This document shows, one piece after another, positions 18,250-59,939 of a stretch of DNA of 64,000 bases. Source of the stretch: Actinomadura luteofluorescens (lineage in GTDB: Bacteria; Actinomycetota; Actinomycetes; Streptosporangiales; Streptosporangiaceae); NCBI RefSeq assembly GCF_013409365.1, contig NZ_JACCBA010000001.1, positions 4,898,001 to 4,962,000 on the forward strand, in the 5' to 3' direction. The position numbers were made by a program, and so were the translations under genes. Every line of letters begins with the position of its first letter. Position 1 is the stretch's first letter. The notes beneath the pieces are model-generated. The model did not search any database. It was not told the origin of the DNA and saw only the letters and a list, made by a program, of their open reading frames with translations.

Positions 18250-18420
18250 GGCCCGGCTCGAAGTGGCCTCGGCCACGCACGCGAACGCGTGACCTGCCCG
18301 GTGCAGCGAAGCCGAAGGCGAGCGAAACCGGGCAGATCGCGAAGCGATGCCGCGTTCGCCCAGGCCAGGTCACGTAGCGAGCCGCCAGGCGAGCTACGTG
18401 GGCCGGGACTGCGTAAACAC
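18250..18420 (-). repeat. Dispersed structured intergenic repeat, copy A (full length)
   Basis: About 90% identical to copy B at 27702-27873 over 163 nt. It contains a 126-nt cassette (18275-18400) bordered by GGCC on both sides. Internal stems include CGTGACCTG (at about 18288) with CAGGTCACG (at about 18366), ATCGC GAA GCGAT, and CACGTAGC with GCTACGTG. Read on the minus strand it begins inside the 3' end of the ABM-haemoglobin gene, whose stop codon it supplies. Orientation relative to the upstream gene is the same in all three copies. Confidence 0.85.
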
Positions 18421-19182
18421 TGCGGGGATGTAGGGCGGGGCGACGCCCCAGCCCCAGTGGGGCATGGGGGCTTCGAGGGGCGGCTTCGCGCCCGGCTGGG
18501 AGTTGGCGAGAGCGATGCGCGTGCCCCACTCGATGTAGGACGCGAACGCGGCGCGGAACTCCGGGTCGTCGGGGAGGCCGACCTCGTCCGCCGCGTCCAT
18601 GAGGAGCGAGACCCAGCGGCGGCGCTGCGCCTCGGTGATGGACTTGCCGAGGTGGTGGCGCACCATGTGGTCGTAGCCGCCGCGCTCGCGGCTGTAGCGC
18701 TCGGGTCCGCGGAAGACCTCGCCGAGCCACGCCGCGACCCACTTCGGGTGGTCCGGGGCCATGTGCTCGAAGAGGGGACGCAGCAGGTCGTCCTTGAGGA
18801 CGTTCGTGTAGAAGTGCTCGGTGAGCCGCTCCAGCGCCTCGCTCCCGCCCGCCCAGTCGTACATGGTCGGGACGGACGAGCCGGCGCCGCGCACCGCCGT
18901 CCGCTCGTAGTGCCGCATCTCCTCGATCCGCTGGACGTACGGCTTGATCTCGGCGAGGAACGCGGGGAAGTGCTCGCCGCCGCGGAAGCCCCGCATGTGG
19001 TCGTCGGTCGACGTCCAGCAGATGCGCAGGATGTACGACGACGGCTCGTCGACGCACCTGGACAGCTCGTAGTCGACGCATTCGGGGGCGGCGGCGAGGG
19101 GGACGGAGGCCCGCGCGTAGGCGGCCTCGAAGTCCTCCGCGTCCTGCGGGTCGATGCGGTAGCGGACGTACTCGACGATCAT
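18394..19182 (-). CDS. Fused antibiotic-biosynthesis monooxygenase domain and truncated haemoglobin
   Basis: Chimera of 262 residues. Residues 1-95 form an ABM-type ferredoxin-like domain (MIVEYVRYRIDPQDAEDFE, ILRICWTSTDDHMRGFRGG). Residues about 105-245 are a group II-type truncated haemoglobin: MYDWAGGSEALERLTEHFYTN, LRPLFEHM, GYDHMVRHHLGKSITEAQRRRWVSLL with the proximal His region. Comparable ABM-globin chimeras are known in Streptomyces; a role in NO or O2 chemistry or heme handling is suspected. The last codons (QSRPT and stop) lie in the intergenic repeat. Confidence 0.9.
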   Translation of the reverse strand: MIVEYVRYRIDPQDAEDFEAAYARASVPLAAAPECVDYELSRCVDEPSSYILRICWTSTDDHMRGFRGGEHFPAFLAEIKPYVQRIEEMRHYERTAVRGAGSSVPTMYDWAGGSEALERLTEHFYTNVLKDDLLRPLFEHMAPDHPKWVAAWLGEVFRGPERYSRERGGYDHMVRHHLGKSITEAQRRRWVSLLMDAADEVGLPDDPEFRAAFASYIEWGTRIALANSQPGAKPPLEAPMPHWGWGVAPPYIPAVFTQSRPT

Positions 19183-19196
19183 GGCGCCCCCAGGCT

Positions 19197-19245
19197 GCTT
19201 CCGGTCGGATTATCACTGTAATCCTGTAATCATCCGACCGGAAGC
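19197..19245. promoter_or_regulatory. 14-bp inverted repeat enclosing tandem GATTACAG boxes, upstream of the globin gene
   Basis: GCTTCCGGTCGGAT (19197-19210) and ATCCGACCGGAAGC (19232-19245) are perfect inverted repeats. The 21-nt loop, read on the minus strand, holds two tandem GATTACAG units followed by TGATAAT, a good -10 element. It lies between the copC stop and the globin ATG, so it could terminate copC transcription and also serve as the globin promoter/operator. Confidence 0.6.
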
Positions 19246-19252
19246 GAAACGA

Positions 19253-19786
19253 TCAATCCTGGGCGGACGAGCGGCGGAACCAGGCGACGGCGCCCGCCCC
19301 GGCCGCGACGACCAGGGCGATCAGGCCGATCCAGAGCCAGCCCGACGAGTTCCCCTGATCCTCGGTCCCGACGATGGTCTTCCGGACCGGCGACGGGGCG
19401 ACGGGAGGGACGGCACCGGACGAGCCCTGCACGGTGAACGTGTAAGTGCCCTCGACCGGGTGGCCGTCCGACGCGACGACACGCCAGCCCACGGTGTACG
19501 TGCCGTTGGGCAGCGTGCCGTTCACCGCCTGGGTGACCTTGTTGTCGACCGCCCGCGCGGACCCGGCCTGGTACTGCCGTCGCGACCCGTCGGTCACGAC
19601 CACGCGCGGCAGCCGGACGGGGTCGCCGTACGTCAGGACGATCTGGGACGGGGCCGCGACCGTCGAGTCCTTCTCAGGGCTCGCCGACGTCAGCGCGGTG
19701 TGCGCCGACGCGGGCACCGCCGTCGTCGCCAGGACGGCCGCGAGCGCCGCGATGCCGGCGGCCCCGCGCAGCGTCGCCCGGCTCAT
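19253..19786 (-). CDS. CopC/YobA-like copper-binding protein with C-terminal membrane anchor
   Basis: Exported copper-handling protein of 177 residues. A signal peptide (1-28, ending VPASA) is followed directly by HTALTSASPEKDSTV: the His at the mature N-terminus is the usual Cu-binding residue of CopC proteins. VGWRVVASDGHPVEGTYTFTV is the second conserved copper segment. A C-terminal transmembrane helix (about 150-170) anchors it. Its ATG overlaps the stop of ycnI (ATGA), so they are translationally coupled. Confidence 0.92.
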   Translation of the reverse strand: MSRATLRGAAGIAALAAVLATTAVPASAHTALTSASPEKDSTVAAPSQIVLTYGDPVRLPRVVVTDGSRRQYQAGSARAVDNKVTQAVNGTLPNGTYTVGWRVVASDGHPVEGTYTFTVQGSSGAVPPVAPSPVRKTIVGTEDQGNSSGWLWIGLIALVVAAGAGAVAWFRRSSAQD

Positions 19787-20493
19787 GCCCGGCTCCTCGC
19801 CCGGGTCACGCCGTAGGCGCCGACCGCGACGCCGGCCACGCCGGCGGCGATGCCGATGCCGGCGAGCAGCCGGGCCGTCCCGTCGCCGGACGACGCGGAC
19901 GACGCCGCGGCGGCGGGCTTCACCTGCGCGGTCAGCCCGGTCGTGGCCGCCGAGCCCTTGGGGAGGAGCTTCAGCACGGGCGAGGGGTGCTCCGGCTCGT
20001 TCGCCCCCTCGGCGGGGGGCTCCTCCCACTTGACGACCTCGCCGCCGGAGTAGGTCTGGTCGGCCTTGAACACGAGCCGGTCGGTGTCGGTGGGCAGCGG
20101 CCCCATCGAGACGTCGAACTCCTCGAACCGGCCCGGCTCGATCTTGCCGCCGCTCCAGGTGATCTTCGTGACGGCCTCGGTCAGCTCGCCGCCCTCGGTC
20201 TTCACCGGCCGCGGAAGCCTGGACTTCTCGACCTTGACCGTCCAGCCGGGCAGCGGCCGGACCGACACCGACGACAGCGGGTGGTCGGTCGGCAGGTTCA
20301 CCACGAGCTTGGTGGTGGAGGCGTCGTCGCGCTCGTTGGGCACGCGGAACGAGACCTTGGAGTAGGAGCCCTGCTCGGCCGTCTTGGGATTGACGCTGAC
20401 GTGCGCGGACGCCGCCGCGGCGAGGCCGATCACGGACAGGGCGGCCAGGGACGCGACGGCGCCGGCGCGCCGGGCATGGGGGAGGAAGGGCAT
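19783..20493 (-). CDS. YcnI/DUF1775 family copper-associated membrane protein
   Basis: Exported protein of 236 residues. The signal peptide (about 1-29) ends at SAHVSVNPKTAEQGSY; the His just after cleavage matches the copper-binding His of YcnI proteins. The DUF1775 domain continues with VSFRVPNERDDASTTKLVVNLP and WSGGKIEPGRFEEFDVSMGPLP. A C-terminal helix (about 208-230) anchors it. GGAG seven bases before the ATG fixes the start. It is coupled to copC, as in Bacillus and actinomycete ycn loci. Confidence 0.92.
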   Translation of the reverse strand: MPFLPHARRAGAVASLAALSVIGLAAAASAHVSVNPKTAEQGSYSKVSFRVPNERDDASTTKLVVNLPTDHPLSSVSVRPLPGWTVKVEKSRLPRPVKTEGGELTEAVTKITWSGGKIEPGRFEEFDVSMGPLPTDTDRLVFKADQTYSGGEVVKWEEPPAEGANEPEHPSPVLKLLPKGSAATTGLTAQVKPAAAASSASSGDGTARLLAGIGIAAGVAGVAVGAYGVTRARSRA

Positions 20494-20569
20494 TGCGGAA
20501 CTCCGTTCGAGACGTACGGGAATGGCCGGGCGCCGCGAGCCGGCGTCCGGTGACGTACGGCGCTCAGGC

Positions 20570-21202
20570 TCAGGAGTGAGCGAGCGCCCTCGAACGCGGA
20601 GGGGGACCCCGCCGGACGACCTGGTGCCGCAGGACACGTCCGGTGGCCGTGACGGCTGCCGCAGCGGGCGCCGGCCGGAGGGGGCGGGCCGGAGGCTCGG
20701 CCGGTTCCACGGCGAGCAGGGCCAGCAGCAGCCGGATCGGGCGGTCCGCCAGGGCGGCGACCCGCCGGGCGAGCGACCACGCGGCCCGCTCGCCGCGCCG
20801 CAGCCACCACGCGGCCACCAGCGCGGCCGTGCAGTGCGCGAGCGTCATCACCAGGCCGTTCCCGCCGTGGGCGGCGGGGACGGCGGCGGGTTCCATGGCG
20901 CCCGTCATGGCGGCGTGCGCCTCGGGCGCGTGGTGGGACGGCGCGCAGGCCGCCGTGAACAGCGTGTGCAGGGCGAACTGCCCGCCGAGGAGCCCGCCCA
21001 GGATCGTCGCGAGCGAGCGCTCGTGGCCCGCCAGCACCAGCGTCACGCCGAGGACGGCGCCGAAGCCCGCGAGCGCCGCCCAGGCCGGCACCGCCGCGCC
21101 GCCCGCCAGGACGTGCCCGAGGGTCGCCAGCGTCGCGCACACGGTGGCGAACACCACCGCGCGTGCGGGCCGGAACAGCGGCTGCGGCGCATGGGGGCTC
21201 AT
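20570..21202 (-). CDS. Multi-pass membrane protein in the copper cluster
   Basis: Protein of about 210 residues with four or so hydrophobic segments (for example AVVFATVCATLATLGHVLAGG) and a central His/Met-rich stretch (ACAPSHHAPEAHAAMTGAM) that could bind metal. It precedes ycnI and copC on the same strand with a 76-nt gap and is probably first in that operon. Family not named; similar small membrane proteins occur next to ycnI in actinomycetes. ATG 21214 is an alternative start. Confidence 0.7.
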   Translation of the reverse strand: MSPHAPQPLFRPARAVVFATVCATLATLGHVLAGGAAVPAWAALAGFGAVLGVTLVLAGHERSLATILGGLLGGQFALHTLFTAACAPSHHAPEAHAAMTGAMEPAAVPAAHGGNGLVMTLAHCTAALVAAWWLRRGERAAWSLARRVAALADRPIRLLLALLAVEPAEPPARPLRPAPAAAAVTATGRVLRHQVVRRGPPPRSRALAHS

Positions 21203-21266
21203 GACGGCCCCCATCGTCCCATCCCCCGCGCGCGCTGCCCAGCCGCCCCCGAACATCCGCCGACGC

Positions 21267-21313
21267 GCCCAACATCTTGGGGTTGTGCGTTGATCGTCGA
21301 CTAGATGTAGGGT
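21267..21313 (+). promoter_or_regulatory. Pair of NrdR-type boxes upstream of nrdAB
   Basis: Two sites, 21267-21282 and 21298-21313, match the NrdR core CWANATNTWG at every fixed position (CAACATCTTG and CTAGATGTAG). Their spacing is exactly 31 nt, three helical turns, as described for NrdR box pairs. They overlap a possible promoter (TTGGGG at 21277 and CTAGAT at 21301). NrdR is the dATP/ATP-sensing repressor of ribonucleotide reductase genes. Confidence 0.7.
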
Positions 21314-21515
21314 TCAGTCCCGTGCTGGTCCGCCCCCGCCGCTCGCGGCGGGGGCGGCGTGAGAGGGAACCCGGTGGGAATCCGGGACTGCCCCGCAGCG
21401 GTGAGCGGGAACGACCGCCGTCATCGAGCACTGGGCCCGGCGGCCTGGGAAGCGACGGCCAGTAGGACGCCTCGGCAGAGGCGGCGCCCGCGAGTCCGAA
21501 GACCTGCCAGTGCGC
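21311..21515 (+). promoter_or_regulatory. Cobalamin (B12) riboswitch in the nrdAB leader
   Basis: The conserved aptamer core is visible: GGGAACCCGGTGGGAATCCG (21365 on) with GGACTGCCCCGCAGCGGTGA following, and near the 3' end GCGAGTCCGAAGACCTGCCA, the B12 box; CTGG at 21325 pairs with CCAG at the end to close P1. Adenosylcobalamin binding should switch nrdAB off, so the class Ia enzyme is made only when B12 is short. This matches the known arrangement in Streptomyces coelicolor. Confidence 0.95.
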
Positions 21516-21535
21516 GGGGCCGGGAGACCGGCCCC
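21516..21535 (+). promoter_or_regulatory. GC hairpin after the B12 riboswitch (possible expression platform)
   Basis: GGGGCCGG GAGA CCGGCCCC is a perfect 8-bp stem with a tetraloop starting immediately after the aptamer. It lacks a T tract and lies about 120 nt before the ribosome site of nrdA, so it may be a Rho-type or structural element of the expression platform rather than a classical terminator. Confidence 0.5.
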
Positions 21536-21662
21536 ATCGGGGGTCCGGGTCCCGTCCCGGATCGACACGTCCAGGCCTCGCGGGTGGGCCGGGGACGGAG
21601 CGCGGCCGCCGCCGCGCGCCGTTCGCATGCCTCCGCGGGGCGGCATGCGAGGGGAGATGCAC

Positions 21663-23930
21663 GTGACAGAGGTTCTGGCCGCGCCGACGGCGGGGATCGC
21701 CGCCGAGGTCGAGGCGGCCTGCGAGGGGGTGCCCGGGGCCGAGGCCGGGCGTGTGCTGGCCGCCGTCCGGTCCGGGGACGGCCTGGACGCGGCGGCCCTG
21801 CGGGACCTCGCGATCGGGGAGGCCGCCGCGCTCATCCCCGCCGAGCCGGGCTACTCCAGGGTGGCCGCGCGGCTGCTCGGCGGCCGGATCCGCGACGAGG
21901 CCGCCGCCGCCGGCGTCCGGACGTTCGCCGAGTCCGTCGCCGCCGCGCACCGCGAGGGCCTCCTGGCGGACGACCTGGCCGCCTTCGTCGCCGCCAACGC
22001 CGGGGCCCTCGACGCCCTCGTCTATAACGGCGCCGATGACCGTTTCGAATACTTCGGGCTCCGGACGGTCTACGACCGGTACCTGCTCAGGCATCCGCGG
22101 TCGCGGCTCGTCCTGGAACGGCCCCAGTACTTCTTTCTGCGGGTGTCCTGCGGGCTCGCCGAGAACGTCGAAGAGGCCGCCGAGCTTTACGCGCTGCTCA
22201 GCACGCTTTCGTACCTGCCCAGCTCGCCCACCCTGTTCAACTCCGGGGCCCGCCGCCCGCAGCTCTCGTCGTGCTTCCTGCTCGACTCGCCGCGCGACGA
22301 GCTGGAGTCCATCTACGACCGGTACGGCCAGGTCGCGCGGCTCAGCAAGTACGCGGGCGGCATCGGCGTCTCCTGGACGCGGGTGCGGTCGCGGGGCTCG
22401 CTGATCCGGGGCACGAACGGGCACTCCAACGGGATCGTCCCGTGGCTGCGCACGCTCGACTCGTCCGTCGCCGCCGTCAACCAGGGCGGCCGCCGCAAGG
22501 GCGCGGCGTGCGTCTACCTGGAGCCGTGGCACGCCGACGTCGAGGAGTTCCTGGAGCTGCGCGACAACACCGGCGAGGACGCGCGCCGCACCCACAACCT
22601 CAACCTGGCCAACTGGATCCCGGACGAGTTCATGCGCCGCGTCGAGGCCGACGCGCAGTGGTCCCTGTTCGACCCCAAGGAGGTCCCCGAGCTGGTCGAC
22701 CTGTGGGGCGACGAGTTCGACGAGGCCTACCGGGCGGCGGAGCGGGAGGGACGGTTCGTCCGGCAGGTCCCGGCCCGCAAGCTGTACGGGCGCATGATGC
22801 GGACGCTCGCCGAGACGGGCAACGGCTGGATGACGTTCAAGGACGCCGCCAACCGCGCCTGCAACCAGACCGCCGAGCGGGGCAGGGTCGTCCACCTGTC
22901 GAACCTCTGCACGGAGATCCTGGAGGTGACGGGCGACGGCGAGGCCGCCGTCTGCAACCTCGGATCGGTGAACCTGGCCGCGCACGTGGGGCCGTCCGGC
23001 GTCGACTGGGAGCGGCTCCGGTCGACGGTCCGCACCGCCGTCCGGTTCCTGGACCGCACCATCGACCGGGGCTTCTACCCGACGCCCGAGGCGGAGACGG
23101 CCAACCGCAAGTGGCGGCCGGTCGGGCTGGGCGTGATGGGCCTCGCGGACGTGTTCTTCACGCTGCGCCTGCCGTTCGACTCCGACGAGGCGCGCGAGCT
23201 GTCGACGCGCGTCGCCGAGGAGATCGCGCTGGCCGCCTACAACGCGTCGGCCGACCTCGCCGCCGTGCACGGGCCGCTGCCCGCCTACGCCGCGACGCGC
23301 ACCGCGCGCGGCCGGCTCCACCTGGACCACTTCCCGGACGCGTCGCCGTCCCGTCCCGCCGACTGGGACGCGCTCCGTGCCCGCGTCGCGGAGGTGGGCC
23401 TGCGCAACTCGCTGCTCGTCGCGATCGCGCCGACCGCGACGATCGCCTCCATCGCGGGCTGCTACGAGTGCATCGAGCCGCAGGTGTCCAACCTGTTCAA
23501 GCGCGAGACGCTGTCCGGCGAGTTCCTCCAGATCAACCGCTACCTGGTGGAGGACCTGAAGTCGCTCGGGCTGTGGACGCCGGCCGTCCGCGAGGCGGTC
23601 AAGAAGGCGAACGGGTCCGTCCAGGGGCTCATCGACCTGCCGGAGGAGATGCTGTCGCTCTACCGGACGGCCTGGGAGCTGCCGCAGAAGGCGCTCATCG
23701 ACCTCGCCGCCGCCCGCACCCCGTACATCGACCAGTCGCAGTCGCTGAACCTGTTCATGGAGACGCCCACGATCGGCAAGCTCTCCTCGATGTACGCCTA
23801 CGCGTGGCGGGCCGGGCTCAAGACGACGTACTACCTGCGGTCCCGTCCCGCGACGCGGATCGCGCAGACGACGGTCGCCGCGGCCGTCTGCTCCCTGGAG
23901 AACCCCGAGACCTGCGAGGCGTGCCAGTGA
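21663..23930 (+). CDS. nrdA: Ribonucleoside-diphosphate reductase class Ia, alpha subunit
   Basis: Large subunit of about 756 residues that reduces ribonucleotides with NrdB. The active-site cysteine pair and radical Cys are in QLSSCFLL, HLSNLCTEILE (Asn, Cys, Glu) and AVCNLGSVNL; the radical-transfer Tyr pair is in TTYYLRS; the C-terminal CEACQ provides the redox-shuttle cysteines. The N-terminus lacks the beta-hairpin of an ATP-cone, so overall-activity control by dATP appears absent. The GTG at 21663 has GGGGAG six bases upstream; an ATG six bases earlier would sit on that site. Confidence 0.95.
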   Translation: MTEVLAAPTAGIAAEVEAACEGVPGAEAGRVLAAVRSGDGLDAAALRDLAIGEAAALIPAEPGYSRVAARLLGGRIRDEAAAAGVRTFAESVAAAHREGLLADDLAAFVAANAGALDALVYNGADDRFEYFGLRTVYDRYLLRHPRSRLVLERPQYFFLRVSCGLAENVEEAAELYALLSTLSYLPSSPTLFNSGARRPQLSSCFLLDSPRDELESIYDRYGQVARLSKYAGGIGVSWTRVRSRGSLIRGTNGHSNGIVPWLRTLDSSVAAVNQGGRRKGAACVYLEPWHADVEEFLELRDNTGEDARRTHNLNLANWIPDEFMRRVEADAQWSLFDPKEVPELVDLWGDEFDEAYRAAEREGRFVRQVPARKLYGRMMRTLAETGNGWMTFKDAANRACNQTAERGRVVHLSNLCTEILEVTGDGEAAVCNLGSVNLAAHVGPSGVDWERLRSTVRTAVRFLDRTIDRGFYPTPEAETANRKWRPVGLGVMGLADVFFTLRLPFDSDEARELSTRVAEEIALAAYNASADLAAVHGPLPAYAATRTARGRLHLDHFPDASPSRPADWDALRARVAEVGLRNSLLVAIAPTATIASIAGCYECIEPQVSNLFKRETLSGEFLQINRYLVEDLKSLGLWTPAVREAVKKANGSVQGLIDLPEEMLSLYRTAWELPQKALIDLAAARTPYIDQSQSLNLFMETPTIGKLSSMYAYAWRAGLKTTYYLRSRPATRIAQTTVAAAVCSLENPETCEACQ

Positions 23931-23971
23931 CCGTGCGGGCGGAAGGGCAGAGGCGAGAGGAAGGACGGGGC

Positions 23972-24967: not shown

Positions 24968-25022
24968 ACCTTTCAGAACGGGCAGTCGTTGAACCGTGAA
25001 GACAAGGCCGAGGAGGAAGAAC

Positions 25023-25181: not shown

Positions 25182-25194
25182 CCCCCACCGAGAC

Positions 25195-25226
25195 CGGACC
25201 CGTCCCCGCCCCCGGGGACGGGTCCG
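25195..25226 (+). terminator. Strong stem-loop terminator after the nrdAB transcript
   Basis: CGGACCCGTCCCC (25195-25207) and GGGGACGGGTCCG (25214-25226) form a perfect 13-bp stem with a 6-nt loop, followed by TTCCGTGTTG. It separates nrdAB and the small gene from the sodF promoter. Confidence 0.8.
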
Positions 25227-26126: not shown

Positions 26127-26543
26127 ATGACCGGCGAGTACCTGTACTGGGAGAACGTCCCAACGCGGTGGAAGGACAACGACGTCTACGGGCATGTCAA
26201 CAACGTCGTCCACTACTCGCTGATGGACACCGTCATCAACGAGTGGATGATCCGGACGGCGGGCTTCGACCCCGCCGTCTCCGGCTCGATCGCGCTCTGC
26301 GTCGAGTCCCACTGCGAGTACAAGGCCGAGGTGGCGTTCCCCGACACGATCCGCGTCGGGCTCCGCGTCGGCAAGCTCGGCCGCTCCAGCGTCCGCTGGG
26401 AGATCGGCATGCTGCGCGGGTCGGACGGAGCCCTCGTCGCCGAGGGCCACTTCGTGCACGTCTTCGTGGACCGGGGCACCCGCCGCCCGGTCGAGATCAC
26501 CGGAAGGGTCCGCACCGAGATGCAGAAGCTGCTGGCCGCATGA
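26127..26543 (+). CDS. Acyl-CoA thioesterase, 4HBT hot-dog fold
   Basis: 138-residue hot-dog protein. WKDNDVYGHVNNVVHYSLMD is the 4-hydroxybenzoyl-CoA thioesterase signature with the catalytic Asp, and CEYKAEVAFPDTIRVGLRV is the second strand motif. It probably hydrolyses a small acyl-CoA. The ATG at 26127 follows TAGTCT by about 7 nt with no ribosome site, suggesting a leaderless message. Its stop overlaps the start of the alcohol dehydrogenase gene (ATGA). The 222 nt upstream contain no other gene. Confidence 0.9.
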   Translation: MTGEYLYWENVPTRWKDNDVYGHVNNVVHYSLMDTVINEWMIRTAGFDPAVSGSIALCVESHCEYKAEVAFPDTIRVGLRVGKLGRSSVRWEIGMLRGSDGALVAEGHFVHVFVDRGTRRPVEITGRVRTEMQKLLAA

Positions 26544-27664
26544 CCGCCACCCGCGCCGCCGTCCTCGTCGAGTCGGGACGCCCCGCCCCGTACGCCGCGT
26601 CCCGCCCCCTGGAGATCGCCGAGCTGCGCCTCGACCCGCCCGGCCACGGCGAGCTCCTGGTCCGGATCGGCGCCGCCGGCCTCTGCCACTCCGACCTGTC
26701 GGTCATCAACGGGTCCCGGCCGCGCCCCCTGCCGATGGCCCTCGGGCACGAGGCCGCGGGCGAGGTCGTGGAGACCGGGCCGGGCACCGAGTTCGCGCCC
26801 GGCGACCACGTCGTGCTCGCGTTCGTCCCGGCCTGCGGCCACTGCGAGCGCTGCGTCGCCGGACGCCCCGCCCTCTGCGGGCCGGGCGCACAGGCCAACG
26901 GCGCCGGGACCCTGCTCGGCGGCGGCCGGCGGTTCCGCGCCTCCGACGGCACGCGCCCGCACCACCACCTCGGCGTCTCGGCGTTCTCCGAGTACACCGT
27001 CGTCTCGTCCCGGTCCGCCGTGAAGATCGACCGCGACCTGCCCTTCGACGTCGCCGCGCTGTTCGGCTGCGCCGTCCTCACCGGCGCCGGCGCCGCCCTC
27101 TACAGCGCCGCCGTCGTGCCGGGCGACACCGTCGCCGTCTTCGGCCTCGGCGGCGTCGGCCTGTCCGCCGTCCTCGCCGCGAAGGCCGCCGGAGCCTCCA
27201 CCGTCCTCGCCGTGGACGTCGTCGACTCCAAGCTGGACCTCGCCGAGCGTCTCGGCGCCCGGCCCGTCGCGGGCGGCCCGGACGCCGTCGAGGCGATCCG
27301 CGACCTGACGTCCGGCGGCGCGGAGAAGGTCGTCGACACGACGGGCGTCGTCGCCGTCCTCGAACAGTCCTACGCGGCGACCCGCCCCGGCGGCACGACC
27401 GTCACCGTCGGCCTCCCCGCCCCGGGCGCGCCGCTGACCCTGCCCGCCCTCAGCCTCGTCGCCGAGGAGCGGACCCTGCGCGGCAGCTACCTCGGCTCCT
27501 GCGTCCCCCGGCGGGACGTCCCCCGCTTCATCGCCCTGTACCGCGACGGCGCCCTCCCCGTGGACGCCCTCCTCAGCGGCCGTCTCCCCCTCGACGAGAT
27601 CAACGCGGGCTTCGACCGCCTCCACACCGCCGAGGCCGTCCGCCAGCTCATTACATTTCCTTGA
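26540..27664 (+). CDS. Zinc-dependent alcohol dehydrogenase (MDR family)
   Basis: Medium-chain dehydrogenase of 374 residues oxidising an alcohol with NAD(P). Catalytic zinc ligands lie in GLCHSDLSV and GHEAAGEV; the structural zinc lobe is CGHCERCVAGRPALC with four Cys; the Rossmann motif is VFGLGGVGLSAV, followed by AVDVVDSK (acidic end of beta 2, suggesting NAD). It is translationally coupled to the thioesterase, so both probably serve one catabolic step series. Confidence 0.92.
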   Translation: MTATRAAVLVESGRPAPYAASRPLEIAELRLDPPGHGELLVRIGAAGLCHSDLSVINGSRPRPLPMALGHEAAGEVVETGPGTEFAPGDHVVLAFVPACGHCERCVAGRPALCGPGAQANGAGTLLGGGRRFRASDGTRPHHHLGVSAFSEYTVVSSRSAVKIDRDLPFDVAALFGCAVLTGAGAALYSAAVVPGDTVAVFGLGGVGLSAVLAAKAAGASTVLAVDVVDSKLDLAERLGARPVAGGPDAVEAIRDLTSGGAEKVVDTTGVVAVLEQSYAATRPGGTTVTVGLPAPGAPLTLPALSLVAEERTLRGSYLGSCVPRRDVPRFIALYRDGALPVDALLSGRLPLDEINAGFDRLHTAEAVRQLITFP

Positions 27665-27701
27665 ACAGACGAAATGTCAGCTAGTTCGGCGAGGCCCCTC
27701 G

Positions 27702-27873
27702 GGCCTGTGTCGAAGTGGCCTCGGCCACGCGCGCGAACGCGTGACCTGGCCGGTGGAGCGAAGCCGGAGGCGAGCGGAGCCGGGCAGATCGCGAAGCGAT
27801 GCCGCGTTCGCCCAGTGCCGGTCACGTAGCGAGCCGCCAGGCGAGCGAAGTGGGCCGGGACTGTGAAACACGG
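27702..27873 (-). repeat. Dispersed structured intergenic repeat, copy B (full length)
   Basis: Second full copy of the element at 18250-18420. The 126-nt cassette is 27727-27852, again bordered by GGCC. On the minus strand it starts two bases after the paaX-like stop codon with GTGTTTCACAGTCCCGGCC and ends with CTTCGACACAGGCC. It lies between convergent genes (alcohol dehydrogenase and PaaX-like regulator). Confidence 0.88.
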
Positions 27874-27874
27874 C

Positions 27875-28606
27875 CTATGCGAGGACGTGGGTGGTGAGGA
27901 GTTGCTCGAAGTCGGCCTCGAAGGCTTCGTAGCGCGCGCGCAGGTCGGGGCCCGGCCAGCCGGCGGGCAGCAGTGACGGGGGGAGGAGCGGGTCGTTCAG
28001 GAGGTGGCGCAGGACGGCCGCCGCGTAGGTGAAGCGCTCGGCGATCGCGGTCGCCCCGGCCAGGGCGGTGCGCAGGGCGTCGGCCTTGGCCGTCCAGGCG
28101 TCCAGGTCCCAGAGGGACGCGGCCAGGACGGCGGGGTCCTCCTCGGGGCGGCCCGTCAGGAAGGTGCACTGCCGGACGACGGGCTCGGGCCGCGGGCGCG
28201 TCAGGTTCGCGGGGCGCAGCCAGGTGCCCTCCCGCAGTTCGGCGAGCCGCAGCGTCGACATGGCCTGGCGCAGCGCGGCGCGGTCGGCGGCGGGACGGCG
28301 CTCGGCGGTGATGACGGCGATCTCCCAGGCGCCGTCCCACGGGCGGGTCGGGGGGAGGCGGGCCTCGTCCTGGCGGGCCTGGCGGGCGAGGAGGCGCTCG
28401 GTGAGGGTGTACGTCCCGCCGGACTGGACGAGGTCGCCGGCGGCGACCATGCGCGAGAGGGCCACCCGGATCGTCCCCTCCGCGATGCCGAACAGGTCGC
28501 CGACGCGGACGAGGTAGCGGGCCGGGAGGCGGGGCGGGTGGACGCCCAGCAGCGTGCTCAGGACGACGGACCGAGCGGTGAGCGGGCGAATCTCCAGGCT
28601 GTCCAT
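27875..28606 (-). CDS. PaaX-family transcriptional regulator
   Basis: Repressor of 243 residues typical of PaaX proteins, which respond to aryl- or acyl-CoA esters. The N-terminal winged helix (RSVVLSTLLGVHPPRLPARYLVRVGDLFGIAEGTIRVALSRMVAAGDLV) is followed by the PaaX central domain (WDGAWEIAVITAERRPAADRAALRQAM). It is divergent from the acyl-CoA dehydrogenase gene, 91 nt apart, so it probably controls that operon. Confidence 0.9.
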   Translation of the reverse strand: MDSLEIRPLTARSVVLSTLLGVHPPRLPARYLVRVGDLFGIAEGTIRVALSRMVAAGDLVQSGGTYTLTERLLARQARQDEARLPPTRPWDGAWEIAVITAERRPAADRAALRQAMSTLRLAELREGTWLRPANLTRPRPEPVVRQCTFLTGRPEEDPAVLAASLWDLDAWTAKADALRTALAGATAIAERFTYAAAVLRHLLNDPLLPPSLLPAGWPGPDLRARYEAFEADFEQLLTTHVLA

Positions 28607-53723: not shown

Positions 53724-53728
53724 CGAGG

Positions 53729-53761
53729 GGGCGGGCCCGGCGGCGCCCGCCGGGCCCGCCC
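53729..53761. terminator. Bidirectional stem-loop between chitinase and purC genes
   Basis: GGGCGGGCCCGGCGG (53729-53743) and CCGCCGGGCCCGCCC (53747-53761) are perfect 15-bp inverted repeats with a 3-nt loop, placed between convergent genes. It would terminate transcripts from both sides. Confidence 0.8.
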
Positions 53762-53771
53762 TCCCCCGTCC

Positions 53772-54605
53772 TCAGGAGGTCCAGGGGGTGCCGGTCAGGC
53801 GTTCGTAGACCTCGGTGTAGCGGGCGCGGGTGGCCTCCACGACCTCGTCGGGGATGGCGGGGCCGGGCGGGGTGCGGTCCCAGTCGAGCGTGCTGCTCCA
53901 GTCGCGCACGAACTGCTTGTCGAGGGAGTGCTGCGGGCGGCCGGGCACCCACTGGTCGGCGGGCCAGAAGCGGGACGAGTCGGGCGTGAGCACCTCGTCG
54001 CCGAGGACGAGGGTGCCGTCGGCGGCGCGCCCGAACTCCAGCTTGGTGTCGGCGATGATGATGCCGCGCTCGGCGGCGAGGGCCGCGCCGCGCTTGTAGA
54101 TCTCCAGGGTGACGTCCTTGAGGCGCGCGGCGGTGTCGTCGCCGATCTCGCGGACCACGTCGTCGTAGGTGATGAACTCGTCGTGGCCCTCGGTGGCCTT
54201 GGTGGTCGGGGTGAAGATCGGCTCCGGCAGCCGGGACGCCTCGACCAGGCCGTCCGGCAGGGGGACGCCCGAGACCGTGCCGGACTTCTGGTACTCCTTC
54301 AGGCCGAGCCCGGCGAGGTGCCCGCGCGCGATCCACTCGACGGGCAGCATGGTGAGGCGGCGGCAGCGGATGGCGCGCCCGGCCCACTCCCGCGGCACGT
54401 CGGTGGCCGACACGACGTGGTTCGGGATGATGTCGGCGAGCCGCTCGAACCACCAGAGGGACAGCTGCGTGAGGATCTTCCCCTTGTCGGGGATCGGGGT
54501 CGGCAGGACGACGTCGTAGACGCTCACCCGGTCGGACGCGACGAGGATCAGTTCGTCGCCGTCCGCGTAGACGTCCCTGACCTTGCCCGAGTGGACCAAC
54601 TCCAT
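53772..54605 (-). CDS. purC: Phosphoribosylaminoimidazole-succinocarboxamide synthase (SAICAR synthetase)
   Basis: 277-residue purine biosynthesis enzyme that joins CAIR and aspartate using ATP. Motifs: SGKVRDVYADGDELILVASDRVSVYDVVLP (ATP/CAIR binding), RRLTMLPVEWIARGHLAG, FTPTTKATEGHDE, IIIADTKLEFG and LGDEVLTPDSSRFWPA. It stands apart from other purine genes here. ATG 54605 has GGGGAG upstream; ATG 54617 is an alternative. Confidence 0.95.
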   Translation of the reverse strand: MELVHSGKVRDVYADGDELILVASDRVSVYDVVLPTPIPDKGKILTQLSLWWFERLADIIPNHVVSATDVPREWAGRAIRCRRLTMLPVEWIARGHLAGLGLKEYQKSGTVSGVPLPDGLVEASRLPEPIFTPTTKATEGHDEFITYDDVVREIGDDTAARLKDVTLEIYKRGAALAAERGIIIADTKLEFGRAADGTLVLGDEVLTPDSSRFWPADQWVPGRPQHSLDKQFVRDWSSTLDWDRTPPGPAIPDEVVEATRARYTEVYERLTGTPWTS

Positions 54606-54799
54606 GACGCTCCCCATCCAGCCGCCGTGCCGGTAAAAGTCTTCCACAGCGCCGCCCCGCGACCTGCGGCGGCTCCGGCCCGCCGTGCCGGGCCCCGCCG
54701 CCCCGCGCGCCAATTCACCTTCAAGTAACACAAGCCAGGACGTATGGGGCAGCGGTCTCCGGGTACGGCGGCCGTGAACCCGTACAGGGAGATGTGCTT

Positions 54800-55159
54800 A
54801 TGAAGGACCGCGTATCGCCCGAGGTGGAGCTGGCGTGGGAGGACTTCCACCGGCTCGTGAACATGACCTCCGACGAACTGCGCACCTGGTTGCTCACGGA
54901 CGCGTCCGGCGAGGCGGCGTTCCCGGCCGACGGCCCCGGCCCCGGGGTGTCCGAGCTGGGAGCCCGCGTGGTGGACGTGCTGCGCAAGCGGAAGGTCGAC
55001 CTGACCGAAAGCGACGGGGAGGTGATGCAGGAGGTCGTCGGCTACGTGGAGGACCGCCTGGAGCACCGGCCGCCGAACGCGGAACGGGACGAGGAGTGGC
55101 GCCACGCGCTGATGAGCGTGGGGCACGACCCGCTGCGTCCCGGACCGTCCAGCGCCTAG
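54800..55159 (+). CDS. DUF3140 family protein
   Basis: 119 residues. [22 protein letters not shown] and [31 protein letters not shown] match the small DUF3140 family, thought to bind nucleic acid but uncharacterised. AGGGAG precedes the ATG; a GTG two codons earlier is possible. The next small gene follows by 11 nt. Confidence 0.85.
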
Positions 55160-55170
55160 GAGGCGAGAGC

Positions 55171-55362
55171 ATGCCGAACCCGCAGCAGCCCGAGATCCGG
55201 CGGTCCGGGAAGACCGCGGTGACGGACGAGCCCGCGCCCGAGGCCACCGACCCGAAGTCGACGAGGGCCAAGGGCCACGCGCACGGCACCGACAAGGGGA
55301 ACAGGGGCGGCGGCAAGGGCGGCGGCACACCGCCGGCACAGAAGCCGCCGCACCCCGCCTAA
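55171..55362 (+). CDS. Small disordered Pro/Gly/Lys-rich protein
   Basis: 63 residues, low complexity ([37 protein letters not shown]), with no fold. TAGGAGG before the ATG supports translation. Co-transcribed with the DUF3140 gene; similar short basic Gly-rich proteins follow DUF3140 genes in other actinomycetes, as far as I recall. Function unknown. Confidence 0.6.
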
Positions 55363-55415
55363 CAGCAGGTCGGAGGCCGTCCCGGAGAGAGTCCGGGGCG
55401 GCCTCCCGTCTGCTG
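55363..55415 (+). terminator. Stem-loop terminator after the DUF3140 operon
   Basis: CAGCAG (55363) pairs with CTGCTG (55410-55415), and GGAGGCCG (55372-55379) with CGGCCTCC (55399-55406), forming a long interrupted stem directly after the stop codon. Confidence 0.7.
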
Positions 55416-55487
55416 CTGCGCGGGCCGGTTCCGTCCGGCCGGGGCGTGCGGTCGATTGACAACGGAAGAGGGAGGGGTGGTACGAGG

Positions 55488-56258
55488 GTGTTCGAGTTGT
55501 CCCCCGGGCAGGGTTGGGTGGAGATCGGCGAGCTGCTGCTCGCCATGGTGCTGTCGGCCGCGATCGGTCTGGAACGAGGGCTGCGCAACAAGAGCGCGGG
55601 GCTGCGCACGCACACCCTCGTCGGCGTCGGCGCGGCCCTGTTCATGCTGGTGAGCAAGTACGGGTTCGAGAACGTCCCCGGGAACGTGTCGCTGGACCCC
55701 TCCCGGGTCGCGGCGCAGATCGTGTCCGGCATCGGCTTCATCGGCGGCGGGCTGATCTTCGTCCGCCGGGACGCGGTGCGCGGCCTCACGACCGCCGCCG
55801 TCGTGTGGGTGACCGCGGCCGTCGGCATGGCGGCCGGCGGCGGGCTGCCGGTCCTCGCGGTGGCGGTCACCGCGATCCACTTCCTCGTCGTCTACGGGCT
55901 GAGCGGGCTGACGAAGAGGCTGCCGCTGGAGCGGTACCGCCGGGCCGGGGTCGCGCGGATGCGGATCGTCTACCGGGACGGGCACGGCGTGCTGCGGCAG
56001 GTCCTGATGGAGTCCACGCGGCGCGACTTCGTGATCCTGGAGGTCGACGTCGACCGCGACCACCTGCCGGACGACTCCGACCGCGGCCGGGACGAACGCC
56101 GCGACCGGCGCGAACCCGACCGGCGCCGGCCGGGCAACGCCGTGGTGTCGCTCACGCTGGAGGGAACGGGCTCGGTCCCGGACCTCGCCGCGGTCCTGAG
56201 CGAACTGGACGACGTCGTCGGCGTCACGGTCGGGGCCGACCGGGACGACAGCGAGTGA
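55488..56258 (+). CDS. MgtC/SapB family membrane protein
   Basis: 256-residue membrane protein. [39 protein letters not shown] and [39 protein letters not shown] are the MgtC signature helices. The C-terminal cytoplasmic part is extended and contains an Asp/Arg-rich stretch ([20 protein letters not shown]), then an ACT-like end. A TTGACA at 55456 may belong to its promoter. GTG 55488 is the chosen start. Confidence 0.9.
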
Positions 56259-56280
56259 GGGGCCGGGAGCCCCGGGCGGG

Positions 56281-56469
56281 TCAGGGGACCTCGGTCTGCG
56301 GGCTGTAGCCGTCGTCCTCCCCGCCCGGGGTCTCGGCCTCGGCGATCGGCGGGTCGGTGGGGCCGGGCGTGTGCTCGGCGCCCACGTCGGCGTCGTCCTC
56401 CTGCGGCGCCCCGGCCTCGGCGCGCCGGTCGGCGAGCGGCTTGTCCTCATCGTTCCTGCGGTCGGTCAT
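56281..56469 (-). CDS. Small acidic disordered protein
   Basis: 62 residues rich in Asp, Glu and Pro (NDEDKPLADRRAEAGAPQED). AGGAGGG before the ATG supports translation. It lies 52 nt downstream of the hemerythrin gene on the same strand. No family known. Confidence 0.55.
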   Translation of the reverse strand: MTDRRNDEDKPLADRRAEAGAPQEDDADVGAEHTPGPTDPPIAEAETPGGEDDGYSPQTEVP

Positions 56470-56521
56470 CGCACCCTCCTCAGGGAAGGGACGGCCCGGC
56501 GGGCCGCCCGGGTCGCGCGGG

Positions 56522-57076
56522 TCAGCCGCGGGCCTTGCCGATGGCGTCGCGGACGCGGTCGGCGACGGCCGCCATCGGGCCGAGCGCGAGGTTCTTGGTG
56601 GGCGACTCCGTCCCCTGGTGGGGATGGGTCGGGGCGACCGCCTCGGCGAGCTTGACGGCCGCGGCCATGCCGCGCATCTGCTCGGGCGTGGCCTCGCGGG
56701 CGATGCGCGGGAACTCCTCCTTCTCCTCGTGCGAGGCGTGCGCGTCGAGGTCGCGGTGGAACCTGGCGAACGTCTCCTCGAACTCGACGGACTCGGGGTC
56801 CATCTTCTCCAGGTCCGACAGGACGCCCTTGGCCTTGTTCTCCTCCTCCAGCCGCTCGTCCACCACCCGGGAGCCGTCGCCGGCGCGCCGGGCGAACGGG
56901 TGGACGACCTCCTCTTCGGCGGTCTCGTGCACGGCGAGAAGCCTGCGCAGCCGGTCGAAGGCGTCCTTGCGCACCTTGCCGTGGTTCTTCTCCACGGTCG
57001 TGGCGAGGTGGCGGATCTCCTCGTGCTGCGCGAGCAGCAGATCGACGACGTTCTCCTTCGTGGCCTGGTCGGCCAT
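56522..57076 (-). CDS. Hemerythrin-domain protein
   Basis: 184 residues. The HHE motifs are VVDLLLAQHEEIRHLATTV, AVHETAEEEVVHPFAR and FHRDLDAHASHEEKEEFPRI, with His and Glu ligands for a diiron site. Such proteins bind O2 or NO or sense oxidants. The C-terminal tail is loop-rich. GGGAGG before ATG 57076 fixes the start. It is divergent from the LAL regulator gene. Confidence 0.92.
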   Translation of the reverse strand: MADQATKENVVDLLLAQHEEIRHLATTVEKNHGKVRKDAFDRLRRLLAVHETAEEEVVHPFARRAGDGSRVVDERLEEENKAKGVLSDLEKMDPESVEFEETFARFHRDLDAHASHEEKEEFPRIAREATPEQMRGMAAAVKLAEAVAPTHPHQGTESPTKNLALGPMAAVADRVRDAIGKARG

Positions 57077-57183
57077 GTCCAACCTCCCGTGAGTGTTCGT
57101 CTTCTCGGGCTCGATTCGTGGCGATACCCGAGGTGAGGGCTTCAACCATCCGGGCGGCGCGGCGGGCTGAGTAGGGTGAGCGC

Positions 57184-59895
57184 ATGCTGTTGGGGCGGGA
57201 CGGGGAACTGGCCGCGATCGACGGACTCCTCGACCGGGCCCGCGCCGGGCGCAGCGGGACCCTCGTGCTGCGCGGCGAGGCCGGGATCGGGAAGTCCGCC
57301 CTCCTCGACCACGCCGCCGGCGCCGCGGACGGCATGCGCGTCCTGCGCGGGACGGGCGTCGAGACCGAGAGCGGCATGCCGTACGCGGGCCTGCACCTGC
57401 TGCTCGGCCGCCACCTCGACCGGATCGGCGGCCTGCCGTACGCGCAGGCCGAGGCGCTGCGAGCGGCCCTCAACATGGGCGGCCCGGAGGCTGAGAGCGA
57501 CCGGTTCCTCGTGGGGCTCGCGGTGCTGACCCTGCTGGCCGACCTGGCGGAGGAGCGGCCGCTGCTCTGCCTGGTCGACGACGCGCACTGGATGGACGGC
57601 GCGTCCGCGGAGGCGCTGCTGTTCGCCGCCCGCCGCCTCGACGCCGAACCCATCGCGGTCGTGTTCGCGGCACGCGACGCGGTCGGGCCGGAATGCGCCG
57701 CCCCCGAGTTCGTCGCGCAGGGGCTGCCAGAGCTGTACCTGCGCGGCCTCGACGGGGACGCGGCGGCCGCGCTGCTGGCCGACCGGGCCCCGGGCCTGCC
57801 CGGCCACGTCCGGCGGGAGATCCTCGCCGGGGCGATGGGCAACCCGCTCGCGCTGCTCGAACTGCCGGGCCGGGGCGGGCACGGGTCGGCCTACGAGCGG
57901 ATCCTGCGGTCGTTCGCCGAGCGGATCGCCGCGCTGCCGGAGCCGGCGCGCAGGCTCGTCCTGCTGGTCGGCGTCGACGACCTCGGCGACGCCGGGGTGG
58001 TGGTGAAGGCGGCGGGCCGGTCCGGCGCCGCCGCCTCCATCGACGACCTGGAGCCCGCCGAGCGCGCGGGTCTGCTGCGCACCACGTCCGACGGGCGGCT
58101 GGAGGTGCGGCACCCGCTGATCCGCACCGCCGCCGTGCGGGAGGCGACGCTCGGCCTGCGCCTGGCCGCCCACAGGGCGCTGGCGGAGGCGTACCTGGAG
58201 CGCGGCGACGTCTGCCACCACGCCTGGCACCTCGCCCGCTCGGTGACGGAACCGGACGAGCACGTCGCGGCCGTGCTGGAGAGGACCGCCGAGACCGAGC
58301 GGAACGCGGGCGGCAACGCGGCCGTCGCCGCCATGTACGAGGCCGCCGCCGATCTCACCCCGGACCAGGCCGAGCGCGGCCGGCGGCTGGCCGCGGCGGC
58401 GCGGGCGTCGGCCGACGCGGGGCTGCCCGAGCGCGCGGTCGAGCTGGCGGCGCGGGCGGAGGCCGACCTGCCGGACCCGCTGGCGCGGGCGGAGCTGACG
58501 CTGATCCGGGCGTCGCTCGCCGACGAGCAGGACCGGGCGGGGGACGCCCACCGGCTGTTCGCCGAGACGGCGGCGTCGGTCACCCGGCTCGATCCCCGCA
58601 CGTCCGGCTACCTGTACTTCCAGGCCGCGGCCGCCGCCGCCAACGCCGGGGACTTCGCCGCGATGGACGGCATCGCCGCCGAGGGCGTGCGCCTCGGCGT
58701 CCCGAACGCGCCGCACCTGCGGGCGCTGAGCCGGGTGTTCGCCGGGCAGAACCCGCTCGCGGACGCCGATCCGGCGGACGGCGTGGCGGCGCTGCGCGAG
58801 CTGATGGACGCGATGGGCGCTTGCTACGCGCCGCGCGACCGGATCCGCGCGGGCATGTGGCATCTCATGATCGGCGACGTGCGGGGCGCGGCCGAGGTCG
58901 CGGCCGACCTGGAGCGGCGCTTCCGCGACCGGGGCGCGATCGGGCTGCTCGCGCCCGTCCTGATGCTCCGGACCCGGACCGACCTGATGCTCGGCAGGTT
59001 CCGCGACGCGCTGACCGGCGCGACGGAGGGCGCGCGGATCGCCACCGACACCGGCCAGCACCGCATCCGCGTCTACCTCGACACCAGCCTGGGCCAGCTC
59101 GCCGCGATCCAGGGCGACGAGGAGCGCTGCCTGGAGCTGACAGAGGAGGCGCTGTCACGCGGCCTCCCGCCGAGCAACGTGCACGCCGCCGCCGCGCGCA
59201 GCCTGCTCGACCTCGGGCTCGGCCGGTACGAGGCGGCTCTGGAACGTCTCGCCGACGTCGTAGCCGGGCCCACCCGGCAAGGCGCCATCGCCGCTCTGCC
59301 CGACATGGTCGAAGCGGCCGTCAGAGCCGGTGTCCCAGAGCGCGCGCGGGACGCCGCTGTCTGGCACGCCGATTGGGCCGCGCAGACTCAGCAGCCCTGG
59401 GCGCAGGCCGTCGCGGCACGCTGCGCGGCCCTCCTGGCCACGGACGACCCAGACCCGCTGTACTCGAAGGCCCTCGATCTGCACCGCGAGGGAGGGACGC
59501 CGTTCGAGCAGGCGCGCACCGAGCTGCTGTACGGGGAGTTCCTGCGGAGGTCACGCCGCAGGAACGACGCACGAGCGCGGCTGCATGCGGCACTGGAGGC
59601 GTTCGAGCGGCTCGGCGCCGCACCCTGGACGGAACGCGCACGGACGGAACTGCGCGCCGCCGGGGAGAGCCTCACCGGCGGCCGCGACGACCCAACCGCC
59701 CGGGACGACCTCGCCGCCCGGCTCACCCCGCAGGAACTCCAGGTCACCCGGCTGGCGGCGACGGGCCTGAGCAACCGGGAGATCGGCGCCCAGCTGTTCC
59801 TCAGTCCCCGGACCGTCGGCTACCACCTCTACAAGGCCTACCCCAAGCTCGGCGTCACCACGAGAGCGGCCCTGGCCCGCCTCGACCTGGGTTAG
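57184..59895 (+). CDS. LAL-type (large ATP-binding) LuxR regulator
   Basis: 903-residue regulator. The AAA/NTPase domain starts at LLGRDGELAAIDGLL with Walker A LRGEAGIGKSALL and Walker B LLCLVDDAHWMDG. Tetratricopeptide-like repeats fill the centre (about 330-800), and the C-terminal LuxR HTH is LTPQELQVTRLAATGLSNREIGAQL and SPRTVGYHLYKAYPKL. LAL regulators respond to small signals and control catabolic or secondary-metabolite genes. The downstream mini-repeat and convergent NAT gene follow. Confidence 0.93.
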   Translation: MLLGRDGELAAIDGLLDRARAGRSGTLVLRGEAGIGKSALLDHAAGAADGMRVLRGTGVETESGMPYAGLHLLLGRHLDRIGGLPYAQAEALRAALNMGGPEAESDRFLVGLAVLTLLADLAEERPLLCLVDDAHWMDGASAEALLFAARRLDAEPIAVVFAARDAVGPECAAPEFVAQGLPELYLRGLDGDAAAALLADRAPGLPGHVRREILAGAMGNPLALLELPGRGGHGSAYERILRSFAERIAALPEPARRLVLLVGVDDLGDAGVVVKAAGRSGAAASIDDLEPAERAGLLRTTSDGRLEVRHPLIRTAAVREATLGLRLAAHRALAEAYLERGDVCHHAWHLARSVTEPDEHVAAVLERTAETERNAGGNAAVAAMYEAAADLTPDQAERGRRLAAAARASADAGLPERAVELAARAEADLPDPLARAELTLIRASLADEQDRAGDAHRLFAETAASVTRLDPRTSGYLYFQAAAAAANAGDFAAMDGIAAEGVRLGVPNAPHLRALSRVFAGQNPLADADPADGVAALRELMDAMGACYAPRDRIRAGMWHLMIGDVRGAAEVAADLERRFRDRGAIGLLAPVLMLRTRTDLMLGRFRDALTGATEGARIATDTGQHRIRVYLDTSLGQLAAIQGDEERCLELTEEALSRGLPPSNVHAAAARSLLDLGLGRYEAALERLADVVAGPTRQGAIAALPDMVEAAVRAGVPERARDAAVWHADWAAQTQQPWAQAVAARCAALLATDDPDPLYSKALDLHREGGTPFEQARTELLYGEFLRRSRRRNDARARLHAALEAFERLGAAPWTERARTELRAAGESLTGGRDDPTARDDLAARLTPQELQVTRLAATGLSNREIGAQLFLSPRTVGYHLYKAYPKLGVTTRAALARLDLG

Positions 59896-59939
59896 TCCGT
59901 GTTTTCACCAGTCCCGGCCTAGGCCGCTTCGAGACAGGC
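59896..59939 (+). repeat. Dispersed intergenic repeat, copy C (mini form without cassette)
   Basis: CCGTGTTTTCACCAGTCCCG then GCCTAGGCCGCTTCGAGACAGGCC aligns with the two ends of copies A and B read in the same gene-relative direction, with the 126-nt internal cassette missing; the junction is GGCCTAGGCC. It fills the whole gap between the LAL stop codon and the convergent NAT stop codon. Confidence 0.75.

Follow-up and report, generated by a model that had tools for sequence, protein, structure and literature searches.

The stretch of DNA analysed here (the window; 64,000 nucleotides, positions 4898001-4962000 of the 9.62-Mb chromosome of Actinomadura luteofluorescens, genome G000 in our set) carries three copies of one intergenic element, which an earlier note made from the sequence alone had placed close to the limits that we find (Table 1). 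We think it quite probable that this element is a non-autonomous one of about 175 bp, similar to a miniature inverted-repeat transposable element (MITE) and moved in trans by a CTAG-targeting DDE transposase of an IS5-family insertion sequence (IS) of Actinomadura. Copies 1 and 2 measure about 175 nt in an alignment of 30 loci of this genome (copy 2 included) with copies 1 and 3.

The 5' end of the element reads CTAG-GCTGTGTTTCAAAGTCCC and its 3' end, read inwards, CTAG-GGCCTGTCTCGAAGTGGCC, and the ends form imperfect inverted repeats with CTAG outside. A CTAG lies no more than 8 nt from the 5' end in 52 of the 90 A. luteofluorescens loci with a recognised 5' module, and from the 3' end in 50 of the 75 loci of 170-220 nt. 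Scanning a set of loci for CTAG pairs (600 pairs, 10 candidates) uncovered a 1.0-kb IS in the genome G027, with the ends GGCGTGTCTCGAAGTC and GGCGTGTCTCAAAGGC. The transposase of this IS comes in two pieces, which match DUF4096 and DDE_Tnp_1, while their match to transpos_IS5_3 stays below the whole-protein cut-off; relatives of the first piece are found in 42 of the 65 genomes of the genus (E<=1e-20). A. luteofluorescens itself carries a copy of this IS (L434, around G000:8304890-8305905), which is 83% identical to that of G027 over the first transposase piece and encodes an open transposase of 304 aa that scores 244.8 bits against transpos_IS5_3 (cut-off 110) and also matches DUF4096 and DDE_Tnp_1. 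It is flanked by CTAG on both sides, and these CTAGs hold the TAG stop of the transposase and the stop of an adjoining open frame of 363 aa. Among eight IS loci that were inspected and showed matching ends, seven have CTAG on both sides and one has TTAG and CTAG.

The ends of the element resemble those of these IS. Its 3' end agrees with an IS end of another species (genome G049) at 17 of 18 bases, which none of 20000 random 18-mers equalled, and its 5' end agrees with the A. luteofluorescens IS end at 14 of 18 (1 of 20000). At two IS loci (L417 and L436), the upstream end carries TCGAAG, as the element 3' end does, and the downstream end TCAAAG, as the element 5' end does, which suggests that the natural direction of the element is opposite to that in which it was first read; the A. 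luteofluorescens IS carries TCGAAG at both ends. Element and IS thus have the same CTAG target and similar ends, and in A. luteofluorescens both are found at TAG stops; they differ in that the IS spans about 1.0 kb and includes a transposase, whereas nothing coding was seen in the 175 bp of the element.

Nine elements lie in 144 kb of the A. luteofluorescens genome and in syntenic regions of five relatives, and the site of each was compared with that in the other genomes. Two sites are clean. The first is that of copy 3, where G051 reads GACCTGGG-CTAG-TTCTTCG and A. luteofluorescens TTAG-element-CTAG; the single CTAG of G051 is the stop codon of both convergent genes. The second concerns a full copy at position 18789 of the G007 stretch, bounded by CTAG on both sides, for which the empty site reads CTAG in G000, G027, and G051, and GTAG in G008. 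At the matching site of G050 the arrangement is nested (CTAG-IS1182-CTAG-element-CCAG). Other sites are informative on one side. For copy 1, G007 and G027 are empty and read CGACTAGCATCC (CTAG followed by CATCC), while A. luteofluorescens retains CTGG followed by CATCC on the right and has lost the left CTAG. Similarly, the left CTAG of the element at G000:4975693 is a stop codon in G050, G007, and G051, with TGA in G008. Finally, a fragment of 51 nt in G008 adjoins a TCCTAG common to G007 and G027. The empty sites reveal the target site duplication expected of a MITE derived from an IS5-family element.

Several observations weigh against this reading. Three of the nine elements compared have no CTAG in relatives; at copy 2, the closest relatives carry different sequence with a TGA stop, and none of them has an empty site confirming that the CGAG flank of this copy was formerly CTAG; relatives show GACTCAGCGG at the place of G050 segment 21168; and G050 segment 12501 sits within gene sequence of G000. 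With two clean sites and three that do not fit, insertion into CTAG leaving CTAG on both sides is well shown at two sites and is not universal. In addition, the flanks of many copies deviate from CTAG, which we attribute to decay. An automatic end search in 31 IS loci found CTAG on both sides in seven (two of them the same IS) and only chance pairs in many others, and even this proportion leans towards CTAG, as the ranking rewarded CTAG and equal flanks. The element (54 of 65 genomes) and the IS5 relatives (42 of 65) show no strict co-occurrence across the genus: elements occur in G007, which lacks an IS match at E<=1e-20, and IS matches are found without a detected element in G013, G020, G028, and G053, for instance. 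Finally, the terminal inverted repeats that the element shares with the autonomous IS are missing from many copies of distant species, which keep the core; a plain MITE does not predict this.

The element belongs to a large family: the A. luteofluorescens genome contains no fewer than 98 loci, counting fragments. The best 40 of 241 candidates scored in a first look at this genome gave 44 matches, 40 of them with E<=4.7e-67. Patterns of the 5' and 3' ends occur at 81 and 68 places, respectively (reversed controls: 0); together with 15 places from the scored matches, these places form 97 clusters, some of which are one-end fragments, and copy 3 is the 98th locus. As the end patterns missed copy 3, this total is a lower bound. 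Fifty-four of the 98 loci are 170-179 nt long.

Outside A. luteofluorescens, the family is largely confined to its genus. A match (E<=0.001) was detected in 54 of the 65 Actinomadura genomes, that of A. luteofluorescens included, when the best 12 candidates per genome were scored, and absence from the other 11 holds at that sensitivity. Among 250 genomes drawn from the taxonomic family (best three candidates per genome), 17 have a match at E<=1e-5; they fall in two of 68 genera, the second being represented by one weak match. A 23-base core pattern searched against named contigs identified at least 120 stretches, and the 80 inspected are all from Actinomadura, except one from Spirillospora. 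These counts bear out the proposal of the earlier note that the copies belong to a multi-copy, genus-restricted family of gene 3' ends, and exceed the two or three copies per genome that it had named as speaking against it. Copies group by species in a tree (51 label changes versus 76.5 after shuffling), which points to repeated expansion within lineages. Resolution of the tree is poor, however (7 of 107 inner branches are starred), and four of its A. luteofluorescens rows are very long, of which three represent one-end fragments or a short copy.

Some copies are modular. Two starts of the 5' hairpin module are recognised in 23 loci and three in two loci, and one A. luteofluorescens locus has three extra partial copies of the 3' part of the element, of 63-75 nt each. 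In an Actinomadura pelletieri record (L200, 2001-2850), the core is arranged in tandem, with at least four copies and a period near 159 nt. Two short copies (L083 and L131) appear to have arisen by deletion between the GGCC(C)ACTTCG repeats that lie close to either end of the element, and copy 3 has its breakpoint nearby.

Gene context was established with a codon-frame score trained on 31 open reading frames of the window, instead of annotation; sites with a margin above 0.15 on both sides are called confident, which drops 26 of the 98 A. luteofluorescens loci and 27 of the 79 copies of relatives. Among the 72 confident A. luteofluorescens loci, 53 are located between convergent genes, 13 between same-direction genes in sense, six in antisense, and none between divergent genes (67, 21, 8, and 2, respectively, of the unfiltered 98). 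The 52 confident copies of relatives, which are best matches and best rows of the scan and not a random sample, are similarly distributed (39 convergent, 10 sense, two antisense, and one divergent). In a 144-kb stretch of the A. luteofluorescens genome (4878001-5022000), 30 of 130 gaps between genes are convergent, against 53 of 72 element loci (p=4e-12). At same-direction sites, sense copies outnumber antisense ones 13 to 6 in A. luteofluorescens (p=0.17) and 23 to 8 when relatives are added (p=0.011). The fixed orientation relative to the upstream gene claimed in the earlier note thus describes the three window copies, while genome-wide it gives way to a partial sense bias atop a preference for convergent genes. 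Its claim that the element starts at or near a stop codon holds for most copies: the sense stop falls within -1 to +2 bases of the element for 52 of 83 confident 5'-side genes (45 TAG, five TAA, and two TGA). The stop of the opposing gene coincides with the 3' junction in 28 of 61 confident cases, and TAG stops occur at both junctions in 12 loci.

The supply of target sites may account for much of this distribution. CTAG is about tenfold rarer in G000 4878001-5022000 than base composition predicts (34 observed versus 355 expected, and 119 by a Markov estimate). Thirty-three of these CTAGs could be classified and 23 remain once those at elements and six within genes are set aside: six between convergent, 11 between same-direction, and six between divergent genes. 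Nine of the 23 hold stop codons. As six of these nine stops belong to convergent genes, the preference of the element for convergent stops is about what stop-codon CTAGs offer, on small numbers.

Taken together, these data are consistent with the following scenario. The IS5-group transposase would bind the short ends of the element and insert it in a CTAG. Because CTAG would be left on both sides, a TAG stop at the target would survive, and two convergent genes with one common CTAG would both keep their stop. Insertions within genes or promoters would presumably be purged by selection. The position of the element at stop codons, mostly between convergent genes, would thus follow from the rarity of CTAG, from its frequent use as a TAG stop, and from this presumed purging. 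This accounts for the stop-codon position better than an origin as a 3' untranslated region (UTR) element, which the earlier note had considered.

The element also contains a structured internal domain, in which four hairpins were drawn on an alignment of 58 copies (one from the window and 57 from other Actinomadura genomes). In helix D (columns 28-59), for example, the sequence varies and pairing is kept, as in CAGGTGGGC/GCCCACCTG and AAGGGGG/CCCCCTT. Over the 40 pairs, 86.7% of cells pair and both sides change in 16 pairs. The covariation score is 0.126, versus 0.062 (sd 0.004) in shuffles that ignore the relatedness of the sequences, none of 500 of which reached it; slid versions score 0.022-0.077, a control that leans towards the drawn structure, hairpins D and C having been drawn by hand from the same data. 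One of the five measures is less extreme, with 42 further pair types versus 36.4 shuffled (reached by 8 of 500 shuffles), and RNAalifold alone proposes 24 pairs on this alignment, three of them covarying. The paired arms seen in the earlier note are thus supported by covariation. No Rfam 15 family is found at the window copies at the gathering score, nor any at E<=1 for 27600-27950.

Mismatches indicate on which strand the domain may fold. Within the 40 pairs, there are 173 T.C and 13 G.A mismatches on the strand first read, T.C corresponding to G.A on the other strand, and 112 further T.C occur in two internal-loop column pairs. Tandem G.A pairs are stable. Wobble types are uninformative on this point (31 G.T versus 46 A.C). 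RNA folding favours the complement strand in 29 of 40 sampled copies of relatives (p=5e-5) and weakly in 19 of 25 sampled from 54 A. luteofluorescens copies (p=0.06), whereas folding with DNA parameters favours neither strand significantly (p=0.24 and 0.16). The four-hairpin domain would be kept by selection on its fold, probably as an RNA with the sequence complementary to the strand first read.

This domain seems more widely kept than the transposon ends, judging from copies of relatives with the core and without the ends. The profile match ends before position 170 in 29 of the 79 copies of relatives, and in many of these short-match copies the conserved part extends only from about GCAGTCCCGGCC to GTGGCTGAGGTC. 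In 13 of these 29 copies, a TGA located 4-12 nt inside the leader of the element terminates the upstream gene, so that the element itself seems to supply the stop codon. Copies of distant species such as L045, L053, L055, L167, and L198 have such an upstream TGA inside a leader resembling GTTGATTGCAG, and lack the usual transposon ends. A core without ends may reflect use by the host, a different mobiliser, or decay following an initial spread.

These features raise the question of whether the element is a host 3'-end element, either a terminator or a 3'UTR RNA, that spread by recombination or gene conversion and resembles a transposon only in look. Placement at stop codons, covarying hairpins, the sense bias (23 versus 8, p=0.011), and the core of other species' copies lacking ends are all in line with such an origin, and the near absence of the element from divergent promoters (none of 72 confident A. 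luteofluorescens loci, one of 52 in relatives) fits it as well as it fits a MITE. However, a host element would be expected neither to show clean empty sites and, once inserted, a CTAG on either side, nor to have ends in common with a CTAG-targeting IS, and we therefore regard this origin as unlikely.

If the element is a MITE-like one moved by the IS5-family transposase, the likeliest role of its hairpin domain would be that of a two-way transcription terminator or 3'-end insulator, making insertion harmless or useful; between convergent genes, this palindromic domain may stop transcripts arriving from either side. The two ideas could be combined in a mobile element with its own selected 3'-end RNA domain, which would enter gene-end CTAGs through the IS5 transposase, serve convergent genes as a two-way terminator or insulator, and be adopted by the host, with hairpins (tandem G.A on one strand) outlasting the transposon ends. 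We put this forward tentatively, and in this full form it is rather doubtful.

A short protein-coding repeat was also considered. One frame is indeed open in 44 of 46 anchored A. luteofluorescens copies. In the genus-wide alignment, however, stops interrupt this frame in 17 of 49 anchored copies, the spacing differs by as much as 3 nt, and no protein frame is conserved among the anchored copies; moreover, sequence changes follow base pairing, and long open frames are common at high GC. A coding repeat thus has next to no chance of being the right explanation, and the coverage of all copies by a conserved frame that the earlier note named as a counter-argument is not seen.

The hairpins had also led the earlier note to suggest a REP-like element (repetitive extragenic palindrome). 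Under this hypothesis, the copies would be REPs or bacterial interspersed mosaic elements (BIMEs) moved by a REP-associated tyrosine transposase (RAYT, Y1/HUH) acting on single-stranded hairpins. A hairpin-rich, intergenic, and abundant element with some tandem modules and a short tetranucleotide at its ends is what this hypothesis predicts. However, PF01797, the RAYT (Y1) transposase family, is not matched at E<=0.001 in the A. luteofluorescens genome, nor in G007, G008, and G027; matches are found in 19 of the 65 genomes of the genus. The element has inverted-repeat ends in common with DDE-type IS and a CTAG at either side, and its unit measures about 175 bp and has CTAG flanks, unlike a GTAG-tagged palindrome of 20-40 bp. 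REP/BIME membership was therefore rejected, and we consider mobilisation by a RAYT very improbable.

A second candidate was the IS1182 family, whose transposases likewise insert in CTAG and which was first favoured for this common target. An IS1182-family IS flanked by CTAG directly adjoins an element copy in G050 (L337, 9400-11500), and at least three of the 11 IS1182 copies above the cut-off in this genome have the element at a distance of about 120 bp from their transposase match. Alignment of the ends, however, gives scores of 1-2, which most random 18-mers reach; a copy above the curated cut-off is present in only three of the 65 genomes; and no element core was found beside the IS1182 copy of A. 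luteofluorescens, just a CAGGCCCTAG flank. In G050, IS1182 copies are inserted at the CTAG of element ends, and at L428 an IS5 copy lies between IS1182 ends on both sides and shares their CTAGs. This candidate was thus dropped, mobilisation by IS1182 being extremely unlikely.

The Actinomadura element can be compared with several known systems. Mycobacterial interspersed repetitive units (MIRUs) are small repeats of mycobacteria inserted at overlapping stop and start codons of co-directional genes, with tandem variation; the element, likewise a small repeat with tandem variation, targets stops, mainly of convergent genes. IS-derived MITEs, as reviewed in PMC10969869, are short, non-coding, and intergenic, with terminal inverted repeats, a target duplication, and a stem-loop transcript. 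The element is like these MITEs in size (most often 170-179 nt), in having no genus-wide coding frame, and in its inverted ends, target duplication, predicted stem-loop transcript, and intergenic place; it differs from them in being GC-rich instead of AT-rich, in its use of CTAG at stop codons, and in its covarying domain, which also occurs in copies without ends. Abundant intergenic hairpins and modular arrays are shared with the REP/BIME systems associated with RAYTs (PMC3733652), whereas the double-sided CTAG, the DDE-type ends, and the lack of a RAYT match in the genome set the element apart. BrickBuilt of Porphyromonas gingivalis (PMC4596501) is likewise a MITE with tandem inner units; these form a 23-nt minisatellite, while the Actinomadura modules are of about 40 nt and 63 nt and are repeated in a minority of copies. 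The element is thus of a known kind, probably a MITE of an IS5-family element, and new in its stop-codon CTAG target, convergent placement, and covarying domain. In the open-licence literature searched, we found no earlier account of the family, nor of any Actinomadura MITE that targets CTAG or stop codons.

Through such a choice of target, a bacterial mobile element could spread with almost no harm, as the tetranucleotide is rare in genes, doubles as a stop, and leaves that stop preserved. The approximately 100 natural insertions in the A. luteofluorescens genome, mostly between convergent genes and with empty sites in close relatives, offer material for studying transcription ending and the adoption of mobile elements by their host. 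They also matter for annotation, as such elements shift gene ends and as, in G050, copies of IS1182 and IS5 pile up at shared CTAG sites.

Table 1. Element copies, their flanks, and neighbouring genes (positions in the window)
Feature	Position	Strand	Remark
Copy 1, full-length element	18250-18423	-	Left CTAG lost
3' target tetranucleotide of copy 1, CTGG	18246-18249	-	Decayed CTAG; 3'-end pattern G000:4916246-4916268
Gene next to copy 1	18394-19182	-	Runs about 30 nt into copy 1, stops there at TAG
Copy 2, full-length element	27702-27874	-	Search query; direct reading and alignment
5' flank of copy 2, ATAG	27875-27878	-	TAG stop at 27875-27877
3' flank of copy 2, CGAG	27698-27701	-	Read as decayed CTAG; 3'-end pattern G000:4925698-4925720
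Gene next to copy 2	27875-28606	-	Stop abuts 5' end of copy 2
Gene convergent to copy 2	26168-27664	+	Ends 37 nt before 3' end of copy 2
Copy 3, 44 nt, internally deleted	59896-59939	+	Both ends present, middle gone
5' target tetranucleotide of copy 3, TTAG	59892-59895	+	With TAG stop of gene 57184-59895
3' target tetranucleotide of copy 3, CTAG	59940-59943	+	59940-59942 is stop of convergent gene
Gene ending at copy 3	57184-59895	+	
Convergent gene at other side of copy 3	59940-61853	-	

Within the window, copies 2 and 3 are both located between convergent genes, so that a second gene ends at their far side. The inserts at the site of copy 3 (59892-59943) differ between G007, G027, G050, and G008, where a near-perfect palindrome of 72 nt is found; most are bounded by CTAG-like ends, and the site looks like an insertion hot spot. 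Between the genes that flank copy 2 (window 27600-27900), G007, G008, G027, and G051 have about 2.1-2.2 kb of DNA that is absent from A. luteofluorescens and G050. The window also contains a cobalamin riboswitch (RF00174) at 21309-21525, with a score of 75.7 bits.

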